Positions 5,492 through 14,932 of a stretch of 38,271 nt of DNA are shown here, piece by piece. The notes under the pieces are model-generated. The model saw only the letters and a list, made by a program, of their open reading frames with translations, made no database searches and was not told the origin of the DNA. Numbering within the stretch: position 1 is the stretch's first letter; each line of letters opens with the position of its first letter. Source of the DNA: an uncultured Pseudomonadota bacterium (GTDB lineage: Bacteria > Pseudomonadota > Gammaproteobacteria > Methylococcales > Methylomonadaceae); NCBI GenBank assembly GCA_903848935.1, contig CAINHO010000013.1, positions 1-38,271 on the forward strand, read 5' to 3'. Position numbers and translations under genes: made by a program.

Positions 5492-7156
5492 TTACGCGAC
5501 CGCTTTCAAGTCATGAACGGTCAGACTGCCGCGTCCGTCTTCGGTAATCTCGTCGTCACTCATTCTAAAATTATCGACTTTCATCGTGAGATATTTATCA
5601 AAATAGGCTTTTAAATCTTTTTCGATAGATTTGTCATAATCAGGCTTGACGATGTGCGTCGTTCCCCATTTTGTGTGAACCACTTTGCCATCAATCACCA
5701 CCACTTCGCCGTCTTTGAAAACATAATCTGGTTTTTCAAACATTTTTTGACGGTCAATATCATCGGTATAAACCGTAATATCTGCCCAATTTCCTGCGCT
5801 CAAACCACCACGATTTTGCAGTCCAATCAATTTTGCCGCACCGGCTCGCGTCATAATCGCAATTTCTTGCAACGTATATTCGCGTTCAATCGAAGCAAGC
5901 GTAGTCATTTTTTGCGCTTCGGGGTGAATCGTAGACAGCACGTCATTTCTAAACGTTCTATCCATCAGCAAACGAATCAAATGTGGATAACTGGTAAATG
6001 GCGCACCGTTCGGATGATCGGTGGTTAAGAAAATCCGCCACGGATCATCAACGAGCAAAAACGTTTCCAAACCAATTGCCCACTGCAACGCATTCACAAA
6101 GTTTTTATCTTTGTATTTGAATGGCACCACGCCACAACCCGCGTCGCATTCAATATCCATCGTCACCCATTTTGCAGGGCTGGCAAACTTATGATTTGCG
6201 TGTTGACGCATACTGTCGCCCGACGCAGTCACCGTTTGCCCGAACAAAATTTGTCCCACGTCGATGGTGATATTTTTGTTTTTGTTAATCGCTTCGGCAA
6301 TTTTTGCCACGCCCGACGAAAATTTGAAATCGCCTTCCGTGCCGTAACTGTGAAATTGAATGTGCGTTAAGTGCATCGGCAAACCGCCAATGCCTTGAAT
6401 CGTATCGAGCGTGGTATCCATATTTCCTGGAACGCCCAAATTACAACCATGAACGTGCAACGGATGCGACACGCCGATTTCTTTCACCGCCGTCGCCAAC
6501 ACGCGCAAAATCTCACGCGGCGTAACACCGTAATGACTATTTTGTTCGTCTAAATCGAGTTTGCGTTGATTGAATTTAAACGCATTGATGCCGCCTGGAT
6601 TCACAACTTTCACGCCAATCGCTTTCGCAGATTGCATCGTCCAGGCAACGTAATCGTTAATGGCTTTTTGGTCTTTTTTCGCGGTTAGCATTCGCAACAA
6701 ATAATCGTCGCTGCCCAACATGACGTAACCGCCTTTGTCCAAAATCGGAATATCACCCATTTCCATGTGCGCTTGACGGGCGTTAATTGGCAACAAAGCA
6801 GGTTCAAAACCAGCGGTGTAACCCATTTCAGCGTAACGATAACCCGTCACAAATGTACTCGGCATCGCGTGTCCGCAACCTGAACGACAAACATCATTAC
6901 TGGCGACAGGGTCTTGGCGATGGTCTTCGGGCAATAAAGTTCGCGCAATGTTTCCTTTGCCGCCGCCGATGTGCGTGTGCATATCGATTGCACCCGACAT
7001 CACGATTTTGCCTTTCAAATCGTATTCTTTATCGACTTGAAAATCGCCGACAGGTTTGTCGATAATTTTGCCGTTTTGAATGTAAATATCTTGTTGTTTG
7101 CCATCGACACCGCTGGCTGGGTCGTACACTTTGCCGCCCGTTAATCTGATTAACAT
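5492..7156 (-). CDS. fhcA: Formyltransferase/hydrolase complex subunit A (formylmethanofuran dehydrogenase subunit A homologue)
   Basis: In methylotrophic bacteria FhcA is the amidohydrolase subunit that releases formate from formyl-methanofuran. It is the last step of tetrahydromethanopterin-linked formaldehyde oxidation, in the cytoplasm. Seen: the metal-binding motif H60-T-H62 (AIDMHTHIGGGKGN), the likely carboxylated lysine K183 in GVKVVNPGG, a histidine pair at 234 and 236 (HVHGCN), and the aspartate D380 in TTDHPNG. These are the expected binuclear zinc ligands of the FmdA/FwdA family (assignment by analogy). The length of 554 aa is normal. The start overlaps the fhcB stop by 7 nt, indicating coupled synthesis. 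Unusually, fhcD and fhcC do not follow; a terminator does. Confidence 0.95.
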   Translation of the reverse strand: MLIRLTGGKVYDPASGVDGKQQDIYIQNGKIIDKPVGDFQVDKEYDLKGKIVMSGAIDMHTHIGGGKGNIARTLLPEDHRQDPVASNDVCRSGCGHAMPSTFVTGYRYAEMGYTAGFEPALLPINARQAHMEMGDIPILDKGGYVMLGSDDYLLRMLTAKKDQKAINDYVAWTMQSAKAIGVKVVNPGGINAFKFNQRKLDLDEQNSHYGVTPREILRVLATAVKEIGVSHPLHVHGCNLGVPGNMDTTLDTIQGIGGLPMHLTHIQFHSYGTEGDFKFSSGVAKIAEAINKNKNITIDVGQILFGQTVTASGDSMRQHANHKFASPAKWVTMDIECDAGCGVVPFKYKDKNFVNALQWAIGLETFLLVDDPWRIFLTTDHPNGAPFTSYPHLIRLLMDRTFRNDVLSTIHPEAQKMTTLASIEREYTLQEIAIMTRAGAAKLIGLQNRGGLSAGNWADITVYTDDIDRQKMFEKPDYVFKDGEVVVIDGKVVHTKWGTTHIVKPDYDKSIEKDLKAYFDKYLTMKVDNFRMSDDEITEDGRGSLTVHDLKAVA

Positions 7157-8421
7157 ACTGATTCCTCGCGTAAAACTTGTTCAATCGCGTTTAAAACTTC
7201 CGCCGTGCTAGGCAAACCCGAATCACGCAATTTTTTCAATCGAATCGCTACCACGTTATCGAGCCGAAACGCATGACCCGCGTGGTCAATCGCAGGCGTG
7301 CCGACAGGAATAAATACGTCGGGTTCTTTTTCAAATGTCATTCCAGAACGCGCCACCACAATTGTCGGTAAATGTGTTTTAGGTGGATTCGCTTGCGTGT
7401 TAAACGCATTGACCCAAACCAGTGCGTCGGCTTCACCGTTATTTAATAGTTCATTCGTTTCAAATAAAAACGGGTCGTATTCGGGATAACCTTTGGCAAA
7501 ACTCACTCGTGCGGCGTAACCCGTTGTCCAACCGCAAACTTGATTTGCCGTTTGATCGCCTTCTTTACCGCCCAATGGGAAACCTGAACAGCGCGTGGTT
7601 TGATTTACGTCTTTGACCATTTCAGAAATCGTTTGCACGGTAAGTTCTGCGTGCGAATAATTCAATGCGCCCGCTGCCCACGTCACAACGCCATATTTTG
7701 CCGCTTTGAGTTTTTCAGCAATCGCCGTTAAATCGGCAATCGAAATGCCTGCAACGTTTTCAGCTTGAATCGGTTGACCTTTGACCAAGGCGCGTAAAAC
7801 GGTCACAACTTCAGGTAAATTTTCAGTGGAACATTCAAAAACTTGTGCGGTTTTACCCGACGGAGAAGTTGACGCATTGCCAGAAGGTTTTGTGCCTAAA
7901 TAAATAATGTCGCGGTCGCTGGTGTTTTCTAAAAACATCGCTTCGTTCCACAGATATTTTTCAAAAAAGCGTGGCGCGAAACCTTCTAAATCTGCACCGA
8001 CAATCAGCAATAAATCACAACGGTTTTTAACTTCGGCAAGCGTGGTATTCATCCAGCCTGAATCTTGCAATGTCAAAAGGTTTTTGCGGGCGTTGTTAAA
8101 ATTCATATTATCAATGACTGCGCCGGTTCTATCCGCTAACGCCAATAAACCACGCATTCCATTTACGTCCGTCGCGCAACCACCAATCACGGGATAATTG
8201 GTATTTTTCAACAAATTTGCGGCGTGTGAAATGGCTTCTTTTAGTTCGACTTCTTTGCCATTGATACGCGCTTTGGTGTCGGTAATTGGTTGCTCAAACG
8301 CGGGCGTATTCACCGCGCAACCGTTTTTAACAACGCTGATTTTTAAACCATCGACTTTAATCGTTAAATCGTCCGTGCCAATGCCGCAAAACGGACTGGG
8401 AACTTCTGTAATTTCACTCAT
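7150..8421 (-). CDS. fhcB: Formyltransferase/hydrolase complex subunit B (formylmethanofuran dehydrogenase subunit B homologue)
   Basis: A 423-aa homologue of the molybdopterin/tungstopterin subunit of archaeal formylmethanofuran dehydrogenase. In bacteria the subunit is part of the Fhc complex but is thought to have lost redox activity. Seen: where archaeal proteins have a CxxC-type cluster motif near the N-terminus, this one has SPFCGIGTDDLTI with a single cysteine, consistent with loss of the iron-sulfur site. The segments GGCATDVNGMRGLLALADRT and TRCSGFPLGGKEGDQTAN identify the family. The ATG at 8421 is preferred over the TTG one codon upstream; GAGG lies about 9 nt before it. It follows the carbinolamine dehydratase gene by 12 nt and overlaps fhcA. 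Confidence 0.93.
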   Translation of the reverse strand: MSEITEVPSPFCGIGTDDLTIKVDGLKISVVKNGCAVNTPAFEQPITDTKARINGKEVELKEAISHAANLLKNTNYPVIGGCATDVNGMRGLLALADRTGAVIDNMNFNNARKNLLTLQDSGWMNTTLAEVKNRCDLLLIVGADLEGFAPRFFEKYLWNEAMFLENTSDRDIIYLGTKPSGNASTSPSGKTAQVFECSTENLPEVVTVLRALVKGQPIQAENVAGISIADLTAIAEKLKAAKYGVVTWAAGALNYSHAELTVQTISEMVKDVNQTTRCSGFPLGGKEGDQTANQVCGWTTGYAARVSFAKGYPEYDPFLFETNELLNNGEADALVWVNAFNTQANPPKTHLPTIVVARSGMTFEKEPDVFIPVGTPAIDHAGHAFRLDNVVAIRLKKLRDSGLPSTAEVLNAIEQVLREESVC

Positions 8422-8433
8422 CAAAACTGTCCT

Positions 8434-8817
8434 CTAGTCTTTTTTTATGTATTTAAAACGTGGGTCTTCGGGCGTACCTTCAAAAACGCCCTGCGAATCC
8501 GCCGCCGCATCCCACATCACCACTTCTTCAATTTTTTTCGCCAAGGCAAAATCTTTTTCAGTAATGCCTTTGGCGGCGTGCGTGACTAATTTCACAATCA
8601 CAAATGCGTAAGACACGGTTAAATCAGGATGATGCCAGGCTTTTTCGGCGAGATGTCCCACCGTATTCACCACCATTAAGGTTGCTTTCCAACCGCTTGT
8701 TTTTATTTTCCGGCGAATCCAACCGTTTTCATAAATCCAATGCGGCAATTCATTTTCTAAGCGGGCTTGAACTTCTGCATCGCTTAACGCGGGGTGATGC
8801 GTTGTTTCTTCTGACAT
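8434..8817 (-). CDS. phhB: Pterin-4a-carbinolamine dehydratase
   Basis: A small dehydratase of the PCD/DCoH family that dehydrates 4a-hydroxy-tetrahydropterins. Seen: the family signature KAWHHPDLTVSYAFVIVKLVTHAAKGITEKD, described here as two conserved halves, HHPD (residues ~64-67) and the TH motif about 18 residues later. The ORF is open further upstream, but the ATG at 8817 has AGGAG six nt before it, giving 127 aa. It lies 12 nt before fhcB. That position suggests a pterin-related job tied to methanopterin C1 metabolism rather than phenylalanine hydroxylation, since no phenylalanine hydroxylase gene is nearby. That role is inference; the family call is firm. Confidence 0.88.
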   Translation of the reverse strand: MSEETTHHPALSDAEVQARLENELPHWIYENGWIRRKIKTSGWKATLMVVNTVGHLAEKAWHHPDLTVSYAFVIVKLVTHAAKGITEKDFALAKKIEEVVMWDAAADSQGVFEGTPEDPRFKYIKKD

Positions 8818-8881
8818 TGTGAACTCCTGATTTAATGGAACGGCATTGTAGCGCGACAACTCGCGTAAGTGTTTAAGATTT

Positions 8882-11913: not shown

Positions 11914-12630
11914 TCATTTTTCGACGAGCTTGAGGCGTTGTTGTTCCAAGTAAAATTGCGCCAACGCCAAATCTTCGGGGCGCGTAATTTTAATGTTGTC
12001 TGTGCGTCCTTCAACTATTTTCGGCGAAAATCCTTGGGTTTCTAATGCACTTGCTTCGTCGGTAATTCCCTCGTTTCCTTGTGTCAATTCCAATGCAATT
12101 TTCAATTCGCCATAACGGAACATTTGCGGCGTTAACGCTCGCCAAATGCGATTGCGATTTAGCGTGCTAACGATTTGCTTACCGTTCACATCTTTGAGCG
12201 TATCGTGCGACGACACCGTCAAAATTCCACCCACAGCATCGTCGCGCAATTCAAAAATCAATTTTTCAATATCGTGCGACGTAATACACGGACGCGCTGC
12301 ATCGTGAACCAAAACCCAATCGTGTGAATTTGCCTGCATTTCAATTGCTGCCAACGCATTTAAAACTGAATCTGCTCGCTCTTTGCCACCTTCGGCACGA
12401 ATGATTTTTGCGTGTTTTGAAATCGGTAAATTATCCCAATACGCATCACCATCTGAAATTGCCACGACGATTTTTTCAAAAATGGCGGCTTCAATCAAGC
12501 GTGTCAACGTGTGTTCAAGAACGGTTTGTTTGTCATTGAGCGAAAGATATTGCTTCGGACAATGAGCATTCATCCGTTTACCTACGCCCGCCGCCGGAAC
12601 AATGCCCCAAAATTTAGTGTTTGTCGTCAT
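11914..12630 (-). CDS. ispD: 2-C-methyl-D-erythritol 4-phosphate cytidylyltransferase
   Basis: Third enzyme of the MEP isoprenoid pathway, joining CTP and MEP to CDP-ME. Seen: the nucleotide-binding N-terminus VPAAGVGKRM followed by PKQYLSL (residues ~10-31), the VLVHDAARPC segment (~105-114) and the RAxTPQxF motif (RALTPQMF, ~163-170), ending with NIKITRPEDLALAQFYL. Length of 238 aa is standard. The start lies inside the 3' end of the oligopeptidase gene (17-nt overlap, different frame), so the two are co-translated. No ispF follows, although ispDF pairing is common. Confidence 0.95.
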   Translation of the reverse strand: MTTNTKFWGIVPAAGVGKRMNAHCPKQYLSLNDKQTVLEHTLTRLIEAAIFEKIVVAISDGDAYWDNLPISKHAKIIRAEGGKERADSVLNALAAIEMQANSHDWVLVHDAARPCITSHDIEKLIFELRDDAVGGILTVSSHDTLKDVNGKQIVSTLNRNRIWRALTPQMFRYGELKIALELTQGNEGITDEASALETQGFSPKIVEGRTDNIKITRPEDLALAQFYLEQQRLKLVEK

Positions 12631-14932
12631 TCACTTGAATTCCATTATGTCGTAACAGCGCATCACACGAAGGATTACGTCCACGAAAGTTTTTAAATAA
12701 TTCCATCGCGTCATCACTGCCACCCATTTCTAAAATATTGGTTAAAAAGGCTTTTCCTGTTTCAGCATCGAAAATTCCTTTTTCTTCAAATAGTGAAAAC
12801 GCATCGCTCGATAAGACTTCTGCCCATTTGTAACTGTAATAACCAGCGGCATAACCGCCTGCGAAAATGTGAGAAAAACTGTGTGCGAAACGATTAAATT
12901 CTGGCACCGGTAACACGGCAACTTTTTCACGAATGTCATTCAAAATTTCATAAATGCGCCCTCCCCTTTGCGGCTCGAAATCGCGGTGAATATGGAAATC
13001 GAACAAACTAAATTCTAATTGCCGAACCATTATCATGCCCGCTTGGAAATTCTTTGCCGCGAGCATTTTTTCAAATAACGTATCTGGCAACGCTTCGCCC
13101 GTTTGATAATGCGCCGAAATTAACGCCAGTGCGTCTTTTTCCCAGCACCAATTTTCTATGAACTGACTAGGTAATTCCACTGCATCCCACGCCACGCCGC
13201 TAATTCCCGACACGCCTAAATAATCCACTTGCGTCAAAACATGATGCAAGCCGTGTCCGAATTCGTGGAACAACGTCGTTACATCATCATGCGTCAACAG
13301 CGACGGTGTATCAGCGGTGGACGGGGTAAAATTACACACCAAAAATGCCACGGGCAATTGAATGTTATTGCCATCCAATTTGCGTCGTCCGATGCAATCA
13401 TCCATCCACGCACCTCCACGTTTTTGAGTTCGGGCAAATAAATCTAAATAAAAACGTCCGCGCTTCTGCCCTTCCCTATCGCAAACTTCAAATAATTGAA
13501 CGTTTTCATGCCAACGATCGAAATCTTGAATTTCTGAAATTTGCAGCCCATATAAACGTTCCAGAATCGCAAATAATCCGTCCAAAATTTTCGCGATGGG
13601 AAAATAACTTTTCACTTCTTCTTGGGACAATTGGTAATGTTGTTGACGCATTTTTTCGGATAAATAACTCACGTCCCACGCCTGCAAGTTTTCGATGGCG
13701 TAATTTTCGAGCGCGAATTGTTTTAAATCTTCCAAATCTTGACGCGCTTGTGGCAACGATTTTTGCGCTAAATCTTCCAAAAATGAAATCACTTCATCGG
13801 TTGAATTCGCCATTTTCGTGGCAAGTGATAAATCAGCGTAATTGGAAAAACCAAGTAATTGCGCTTCTTCGTGACGCAACGTGAGAATTTGTTCCATGAT
13901 TTTGGTGTTATCAAAATCATTTTCAGTCGCCCGCGTAACAAACGCAGTGTAATGTTCGCGGCGCAATTCGCGATTGTCTGCATACGTCATCACCGCCAAA
14001 TACGATGGAAATTGCAACGTGATTAACCAACCGTTGGCTTCAGGTTTCATGTGAAACGTACCACAAGATTCTTCATTATGTTTCACATGAAACAACTCGG
14101 CACTTTGTTTCGCTTGCGCCAACGCCGTTTCTGGCAAACCGGCTAATTCGTTCACGTCCGTGATTAACATCGTCCATATATTCGTCGCGTCCAAAACATT
14201 TTCTTCGTAACGACTGGTCAAGGAACTTAATTGTTGAGAAATTTCTTTGTAACGCTGTTTTTGTTCCACGGGTAACGCTACGCCTGATAATTGAAAATCA
14301 CGCAAGGCATTAGTAATGACTTTCTGCTGGGATTTCGTTAACGTCGCAAAAGTTTCATGTGAAACAATCGATTCATAAGCGTGGAACAGTTTTTCATTTT
14401 GTCCCATTTCGGTGGCGTAATCGCTCAACTTCGGCAAACAGGCATTGTACGCATCACGCAATGTATCATTATTCATCACCGCATTTAAATGACTGATGGG
14501 CGACCACGCTTTACTCAAGCGGTCTTCTGCAGTTTCAATCGGTTCAATTAAGTTTTCCCAAGTGTATACATCGTTTGTGTTCAAAGAATCGGCAACGGCT
14601 TTTCGGGCATTCGCCAATAATTCATCAATCGCAGGTTCAACGTGTTCGGGTTTGATTTGGCTAAAATGCGGTAAATCGGTTTGAGTTAATAATGGATTTG
14701 TCATTTTCAAAGAGTTAATAAAAGAGAGTAGGGCAGGGGAGTCAAAACGCCAATTCAAATAGCGTTGCGTTTCGGCGTGATACAAAACAGGAATTAGCGT
14801 GGCAAATTGCGTTTGCCAGGCTTCGTGTTCGGCAATATCAACGATTTCGGCGACGATATTATTTTTATTCAAAAGGGTTTGCGCGTCGTCACACAAATGA
14901 CAACCGTCCGTACCGAGTAATAATAAACGCAT
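12614..14932 (-). CDS. prlC: Glutaredoxin-like domain fused to oligopeptidase A (M3 family)
   Basis: One uninterrupted 772-aa ORF with two parts. Residues 1-75 form a thioredoxin-fold domain of the DUF836 glutaredoxin-like type, with C11-H-L-C14, the cis-proline segment LIPVL and the ending RFDSPALLSFI. Residues 77-772 are a complete M3 zinc metallopeptidase that degrades short peptides, including cleaved signal peptides, in the cytoplasm. Its zinc motif HEFGH is at 556-560 (TLFHEFGHGLHH). The peptidase could start at an internal ATG (14704), but no Shine-Dalgarno sequence precedes it, favouring a real fusion. Compared with recalled OpdA sequences there are ~18 extra residues between AKQSAEL and GWLITL, and this insert carries two parS-like DNA sites (14044, 14080). 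Its 3' end overlaps ispD. Confidence 0.88.
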   Translation of the reverse strand: MRLLLLGTDGCHLCDDAQTLLNKNNIVAEIVDIAEHEAWQTQFATLIPVLYHAETQRYLNWRFDSPALLSFINSLKMTNPLLTQTDLPHFSQIKPEHVEPAIDELLANARKAVADSLNTNDVYTWENLIEPIETAEDRLSKAWSPISHLNAVMNNDTLRDAYNACLPKLSDYATEMGQNEKLFHAYESIVSHETFATLTKSQQKVITNALRDFQLSGVALPVEQKQRYKEISQQLSSLTSRYEENVLDATNIWTMLITDVNELAGLPETALAQAKQSAELFHVKHNEESCGTFHMKPEANGWLITLQFPSYLAVMTYADNRELRREHYTAFVTRATENDFDNTKIMEQILTLRHEEAQLLGFSNYADLSLATKMANSTDEVISFLEDLAQKSLPQARQDLEDLKQFALENYAIENLQAWDVSYLSEKMRQQHYQLSQEEVKSYFPIAKILDGLFAILERLYGLQISEIQDFDRWHENVQLFEVCDREGQKRGRFYLDLFARTQKRGGAWMDDCIGRRKLDGNNIQLPVAFLVCNFTPSTADTPSLLTHDDVTTLFHEFGHGLHHVLTQVDYLGVSGISGVAWDAVELPSQFIENWCWEKDALALISAHYQTGEALPDTLFEKMLAAKNFQAGMIMVRQLEFSLFDFHIHRDFEPQRGGRIYEILNDIREKVAVLPVPEFNRFAHSFSHIFAGGYAAGYYSYKWAEVLSSDAFSLFEEKGIFDAETGKAFLTNILEMGGSDDAMELFKNFRGRNPSCDALLRHNGIQVNDDKH
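14044..14057. other. parS-like ParB-binding site A
   Basis: GTTTCATGTGAAAC differs from the core of the near-universal chromosomal parS palindrome (TGTTTCACGTGAAACA) only at the central CpG, which is TG here. Over 16 nt the match is 13. It encodes the FHMKP segment of the peptidase on the minus strand, inside the apparent insertion. Confidence 0.6.
14080..14093. other. parS-like ParB-binding site B
   Basis: GTTTCACATGAAAC with flanking T and A matches the 16-nt parS consensus at 15 of 16 positions, the exception again being the central CpG (CA here). It is the reverse complement of sites A and C and lies 36 bp from A. It encodes FHVKH on the minus strand, a peptide commonly produced where parS sites lie within genes. 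Confidence 0.7.
14352..14365. other. parS-like ParB-binding site C
   Basis: GTTTCATGTGAAAC with a 3' flanking A matches parS at 14 of 16 positions. It lies 272 bp from site B and is read in a different codon frame from A and B (minus-strand translation VSHET). Conservation is therefore at the DNA level rather than a protein repeat. Confidence 0.65.

Follow-up and report, generated by a model that had tools for sequence, protein, structure and literature searches.

parS-like sites with a relaxed centre, very probably re-sited into the oligopeptidase gene opdA in a genus of the Methylomonadaceae

What are three near-copies of a bacterial centromere site doing inside a gene for a peptidase? The question arises from a window of 38,271 bp, the whole stretch of DNA analysed here (contig C13), from an uncultured bacterium of a methane-oxidiser-like lineage in the Methylomonadaceae. 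Genes for formylmethanofuran dehydrogenase subunits A and B and for a pterin dehydratase stand in a row at positions 5492–8859, as expected for a methylotroph.

Chromosomal parS sites of ParABS systems are mainly TGTTNCACGTGAAACA (PMC7022226). The palindromes in the window depart from this sequence at the centre. Comparison with relatives leads us to consider it highly probable that they are the bacterium's own chromosomal parS, re-sited into opdA and with a relaxed central dinucleotide. We infer from their sequences and distribution that they bind ParB and act in segregation.

Three palindromes in the window

The sites lie at 14044–14057 (site A, GTTTCATGTGAAAC, with TG at the centre on the plus strand), 14080–14093 (site B, GTTTCACATGAAAC, or TGTTTCACATGAAACA as a 16-mer with its flanks) and 14352–14365 (site C, GTTTCATGTGAAAC). 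All are exact matches, and none is assigned a strand. On the gene strand, site C comes first (14365–14352, frame 0) and encodes VSHET, residues 190–194. It is followed by B (14093–14080) and A (14057–14044), which encode LFHVKH and TFHMKP in one common frame, different from that of site C. Each site is one mismatch from the canonical 14-mer GTTTCACGTGAAAC, a transition at a central base; the first-pass annotation had thus read them correctly when it placed 14-mers at 14044, 14080 and 14352 and set them apart from canonical parS by the central CpG alone.

A scan of the whole genome (2,395,145 bp in 51 contigs, 90.8% complete), which that annotation had proposed, finds near-exact matches in the opdA cluster only. 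Sites A, B and C are the sole places within one mismatch of GTTTCACGTGAAAC, and the degenerate form GTTTCANNTGAAAC occurs five times, three times in opdA and twice with other centres. The canonical 14-mer has no exact match in this assembly, from which, at 90.8% completeness, it could be missing. A simple composition model expects 0.055 copies of GTTTCAYRTGAAAC per genome and, for three inside 322 bp, about 1.5e-12. With three mismatches allowed, the window holds 11 matches for 10.98 expected, which is chance level; with two allowed, the genome holds 15 such places, against 13 for a reversed control pattern. The signal is therefore confined to near-exact matches. The cluster is real, well above chance and best read as functional parS whose host gene and centre are both unusual.

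Two features of chromosomal parS were compared. A palindrome near TGTTNCACGTGAAACA is present at all three sites; an intact CACGTG core is present at none of them and at 16 of the 36 opdA sites in the genus. Because all sites of this genome have CA or TG centres, we class them as a parS variant rather than as canonical parS. Motif searches that demand CACGTG would score the genome as having ParB without parS.

The host gene and its insertion

The cluster lies in an oligopeptidase A gene of the opdA/prlC type (12614–14932, minus strand). Its product matches Pfam Peptidase_M3 (E = 4.3e-156), TOP_N and a glutaredoxin-like family, and its closest solved relatives carry the name oligopeptidase A. 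The glutaredoxin-like domain (DUF836, PF05768; residues 2–72, 14717–14929, minus strand) forms the N-terminus of the oligopeptidase in the same frame. A DUF836-type domain is matched apart from opdA in many other genera and, within the genus, is a separate match adjoining opdA in G002, G007 and G008.

We found opdA in all 61 genomes (this one and 60 relatives) and aligned 30 loci: 17 from the genus, counting this one, and 13 from the family's other genera. Sites A and B are carried by a coding insertion (14048–14095, minus strand; approximately residues 280–295). The insertion is specific to the genus: it is absent from all 13 OpdAs of the other genera, and the genus members G001, G009 and G010 have lost it or retain just a few residues. 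The first-pass annotation had spoken of about 18 extra residues absent from usual OpdA; the insertion stands, with its length revised to a net 16 residues relative to the 13 other OpdAs. The idea of a parS-type cluster embedded in a coding gene is likewise borne out, by sites within the opdA reading frame here and at orthologous positions in the genus. In the AlphaFold model, whose mean pLDDT is a modest 64, residues 282–298 have pLDDT below 50 and no secondary structure. The insertion is thus predicted to be a flexible or disordered loop, which would fit the tolerance of added residues in an enzyme.

Orthologous sites across the genus

Sites were scored in the genus when within one mismatch outside the centre, and in other genera with up to two mismatches allowed outside the centre. 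On this basis, none of the 13 other-genus loci has a parS-like site in opdA, and 14 of the 17 genus genes together have 36, two or three each, at orthologous positions. The centres are CG (16 sites), CA (12) or TG (8), and none of the other 13 dinucleotides occurs. Sites are spaced by 36, 272 and 308 bp, apart from G012, G013 and G016, which have sites A and B only, 45 bp apart, and whose branching place differs between two tree runs. Among the 14 site-bearing genes, site A has an ortholog in 12 (missing in G003 and G011), site B in 13 (decayed in G006, which has ParB) and site C in 11 (missing in G012, G013 and G016).

Canonical GTTTCACGTGAAAC occupies two opdA positions in G002, G015 and G017 and one in G004 and G006. 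Six ParB-encoding genomes have no centres other than CA or TG in opdA (this genome, G000, with G003, G007, G008, G011 and G014), and CG and TG centres are mixed inside the single genomes G004, G006 and G017. G012, G013 and G016 carry exact GTTCCACGTGAAAC and GTTTCACGTGGAAC. The sequence GTTYCAYRTGRAAC was found in 1 of 80 named opdA loci of up to 22 kb each, and that locus (L126), judged from its site spacing, is that of G012, of the same genus.

All 12 non-central columns of site C are invariant across 11 genus genomes, a property of 2 of 1986 14-nt windows, site C being one of them. Its central codon is CAT, CGT or TGT. The residue therefore varies among His, Arg and Cys while the palindrome is kept, which argues for selection on the DNA; this, with the two reading frames, agrees with the earlier claim that DNA rather than protein is conserved. 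Synonymous positions were compared in 182 codon columns of these 11 genomes, defined by a conserved residue with four or six codons and constant first two bases, and including the twofold Leu TTR, Arg AGR and Ser AGY codons. The third base is invariant in 10 of the 182, among them the neighbouring pair V190 (GTT) and S191 (TCA) of site C. Four of the ten lie in true fourfold boxes (V190, S191, R227 and R681). The Glu codon of site C is invariant too, which is little evidence because the same holds for 17 of 26 Glu columns.

Similar sequences occur at a few places outside opdA. VSHET sites in a pheT-like gene (named by eye) of G001 and G007 encode VSHETLHPG in the frame of that gene. Since, in addition, one of the two genomes lacks parAB, we took these as chance. 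At L101 (G012:C117:1039 and 1095), GTTCCATGTGGAAC and GTTCCACGTGAAAC lie beside ybeY-like and GidA-family genes on a contig that, from its resemblance, we presume may be foreign, in a bin with 4% contamination, and this candidate was set aside. An extra GTTCCACGTGAAAC lies in a small gene adjoining rpoN at L096 (G004:C59:420) and L102 (G017:C57:6407). The G004 copy shares a contig with opdA and lies 2.9 kb away from the closest opdA site; the small gene of G017 has an AMPK1_CBM match just above cut-off and a helix-hairpin-helix match below cut-off. In the window, this small gene is missing between rpoN and the next gene.

Sites at recF in other genera

Where are the sites of relatives that have none in opdA? 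We opened seven loci in the family's other genera, and in six (G022, G027, G032, G228, G236 and G242) a site or pair of sites lies at the 3′ end of recF or immediately beyond it, where it encodes MFHVKH, MFHVEH or similar. RecF was confirmed by TIGR00611 in G022 and G242, and the other four match a RecF/RecN/SMC N-terminal domain. The seventh locus (G036) has its site in another open reading frame. A CA or TG centre occurs at the recF loci of G228, G236 and G242; in G228 and G242, among the matches listed, it lies beside a canonical site. Farther out, L250 and L251 (family f3) have their sites elsewhere than recF; site positions across the order rest on the matches listed.

In the genus itself, recF is absent between dnaN and gyrB in all four contigs that hold both genes (G002, G003, G004 and G010; L230, L258, L260 and L205), where the two are about 100 bp apart. 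Because the family sites lie mostly at the recF 3′ end, beside dnaA–dnaN, and the visible genus contigs have no recF there, the result amounts to a re-siting of the centromere. We infer a shift from recF to opdA, and would apply the same caution to whether recF was lost before or after opdA gained the sites. The literature listings we searched show no report, for this group, of a relocated parS or of lost parAB.

Loss of the sites with parAB

The genome has one ParB gene, on contig C22 (G000:C22), in the order gidB–parA–parB–atpI–atpB; these gene names are partly by eye, with ParB confirmed by profile. The ParB passes the PF02195 and TIGR00180 cut-offs, and the ParA matches ParA-type families, none of those listed being above its NCBIfam cut-off. 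ParA and ParB of chromosomal type are thus both present.

The search of 18 genus genomes found no ParB in G001, G009, G010 and G015. G015 also lacks gidB, a probable assembly gap, and so was not scored for ParB; G005 was dropped for its fragmentary opdA. The remaining losses have left traces: the last bases of parB in a gidB–atpI gap of 495 bp in G001, a 29-residue ParB end in a gap of 227 bp in G010 and a 50-residue ParA start beside gidB in G009. Two or three sites are kept in all 13 ParB-encoding genomes with a scorable opdA and none in the three parAB-less genomes (Fisher p = 0.0018, with no correction for kinship, the three parAB-less genomes being related). In those three, site C carries two changes at non-central positions. 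The best trees place two parAB losses; a single shared loss has an AU p of 0.061 and is thus not rejected. Site retention accordingly depends on ParAB, with one or two loss events.

This pattern bears on whether the sites are relics, that is, once-functional parS whose unused CpG centres are eroding by transition to TG or CA, the decay that the first-pass annotation had offered as one reading. The sites here are each one central transition from canonical, as CpG deamination would yield, and true erosion does occur in G001, G009 and G010 and at site B of G006, which has ParB. Yet six ParB-encoding genomes have CA or TG centres only, and the 12 non-central bases of site C have stayed invariant in 11 genomes in a gene in which 172 of 182 codon columns vary. 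Total loss of sites is confined to the three parAB-less genomes, where the flanks break and the insertion vanishes, and TG or CA centres are also found at recF of other genera, two of them with a canonical site alongside. We therefore regard decay as very unlikely and active parS of relaxed centre as the better account.

The ParB contact stretch

The other reading offered at first was a ParB of altered specificity; on this view the protein would have evolved together with a new parS of CA/TG centre. Such a protein might be expected from G000, G003, G007, G011 and G014, which encode ParB and have a changed centre at every place within one mismatch of parS. The best solved-structure match of the ParB is 6t1f, which we take to be Caulobacter ParB, and the alignment to 6t1f was used to map the Caulobacter contact residues onto the protein. 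The parS-contacting residues are given in PMC7383237, according to which R173 and G201 (Caulobacter numbering) distinguish parS from the Noc site; both are kept here. Q162 is His in all 30 aligned ParBs, including those of G022 and G027, which represent genera with canonical parS. The helix-turn-helix contact stretch shows no split between the six CA/TG-only genus members and the seven with at least one CG site. The one ParB position that separates the two groups, residue 231, is outside the stretch, and CG is mixed with TG within G004, G006 and G017. Because the contact stretch does not set the two groups apart, neither decay nor a new specificity is required, and we consider an altered ParB even less probable than decay. 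Equally improbable is another palindrome-reading regulator, or protein-level selection on the FHVK repeat in OpdA: in most genus members the insert does encode an FHVK/FHMK-like peptide twice, and all sites of this genome are within one gene, but site C is in another frame with a central His, Arg or Cys, several species have canonical parS at the orthologous positions, and neither idea predicts the loss of sites along with parAB.

Distance to the origin

The first-pass annotation had also proposed that the window is origin-proximal. This is supported by the relative G003, in which a 221-kb contig has dnaN–gyrB at its start and opdA at 78.3–80.5 kb, placing the cluster about 78 kb from dnaN–gyrB, or about 3% of a 2.6-Mb chromosome. 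The G003 dnaA match (among the matches listed) lies on another contig and stops 321 bp short of its end, which would fit a join of that contig to the dnaN–gyrB contig. For the window itself the claim does not carry over directly: among the matches listed, dnaA is on a separate contig (C11). G003 and the window differ in gene order to the left of opdA, and parts of C11 align to the G003 opdA contig. GC skew and codon-site skew by strand, tried for placing the origin on contigs, were swamped by gene orientation.

A model for a probably re-sited centromere

If the sites are active parS, CTP-bound clamps of the genome's single chromosomal-type ParB would load at opdA and spread from there, and ParA would move the ParB complex and so segregate the origin region. 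Two sites lie in the short added loop (FHVK-n-FHMK) and the third, outside the loop, in codons held to spell the palindrome. The bacterium's own ParB would tolerate CG, CA or TG at the central step, which would make CA and TG a permitted variant rather than decay. The close spacing of the sites may offset weaker single sites, and the one-sided change of centre, which leaves one perfect half-site in each site of this genome, is a possible reason for the tolerance.

The SMC search adds a further element. TIGR02168 scores above cut-off in G014 only, with pieces in G002 and G015, and the other 15 of the 18 genus genomes, this one included, have only weak matches among those listed (the best 22 candidates were scored in most genomes). 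Because most members have no good SMC match among those listed, SMC loading is unlikely as the selective reason for the sites there. We hypothesize, with the balance about even, that re-siting occurred upon loss of recF through an added parS-coding loop and synonymous codon tuning, and that the centre was released to CG, CA or TG with the ParB contact stretch unchanged and mostly without a recognisable SMC.

A genus that keeps, relaxes or loses parS alongside ParAB may serve as a natural experiment on the definition of a bacterial centromere. The tolerated centre, the constraint on coding-embedded parS and the relocation of a centromere are all testable within it, and the parAB-less relatives, with the apparent lack of SMC, bear on which segregation parts are dispensable in small genomes.

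Comparison with known systems

parS within genes has precedents. In Pseudomonas aeruginosa, parS1 and parS2 are within recF (PMC5521831) and nine of ten PAO1 parS are predicted inside coding sequences (PMC4368675). The genus resembles P. aeruginosa in having parS-like sites in coding sequence, and the recF–gyrB location matches six of the seven other-genus family loci; unlike P. aeruginosa, the genus has as host a peptidase gene that carries a loop insertion, and the four contigs have no recF between dnaN and gyrB.

An intact CACGTG core is reported as important for ParB binding in P. aeruginosa, with changes inside it lowering binding (PMC4368675). For Burkholderia cenocepacia c1, whose parS is canonical, symmetric changes, those at the centre included, are described as abolishing binding except at positions 1–16 and 5–12, the one-sided changes listed as high-scoring include none at position 8, and all six centromeres of that study display a central CG (PMC5450999). 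The open-access literature searched yielded no mention of CA or TG cores in connection with parS. The exact sequences of G012, G013 and G016 are like the T5C or A12G parS variants of PMC5450999; unlike those variants, the sites of the present genome are altered at position 8 or 9, in the central CG.

Set against ParABS parS as a whole, the cluster differs in its CA or TG centres, in its place in opdA instead of recF/gyrB and in the lack of a good SMC match, among those listed, in the 15 genomes. It is like ParABS parS in being a 14- to 16-bp palindrome in clustered copies, accompanied by chromosomal-type ParA and ParB and, in G003, proximal to the origin.
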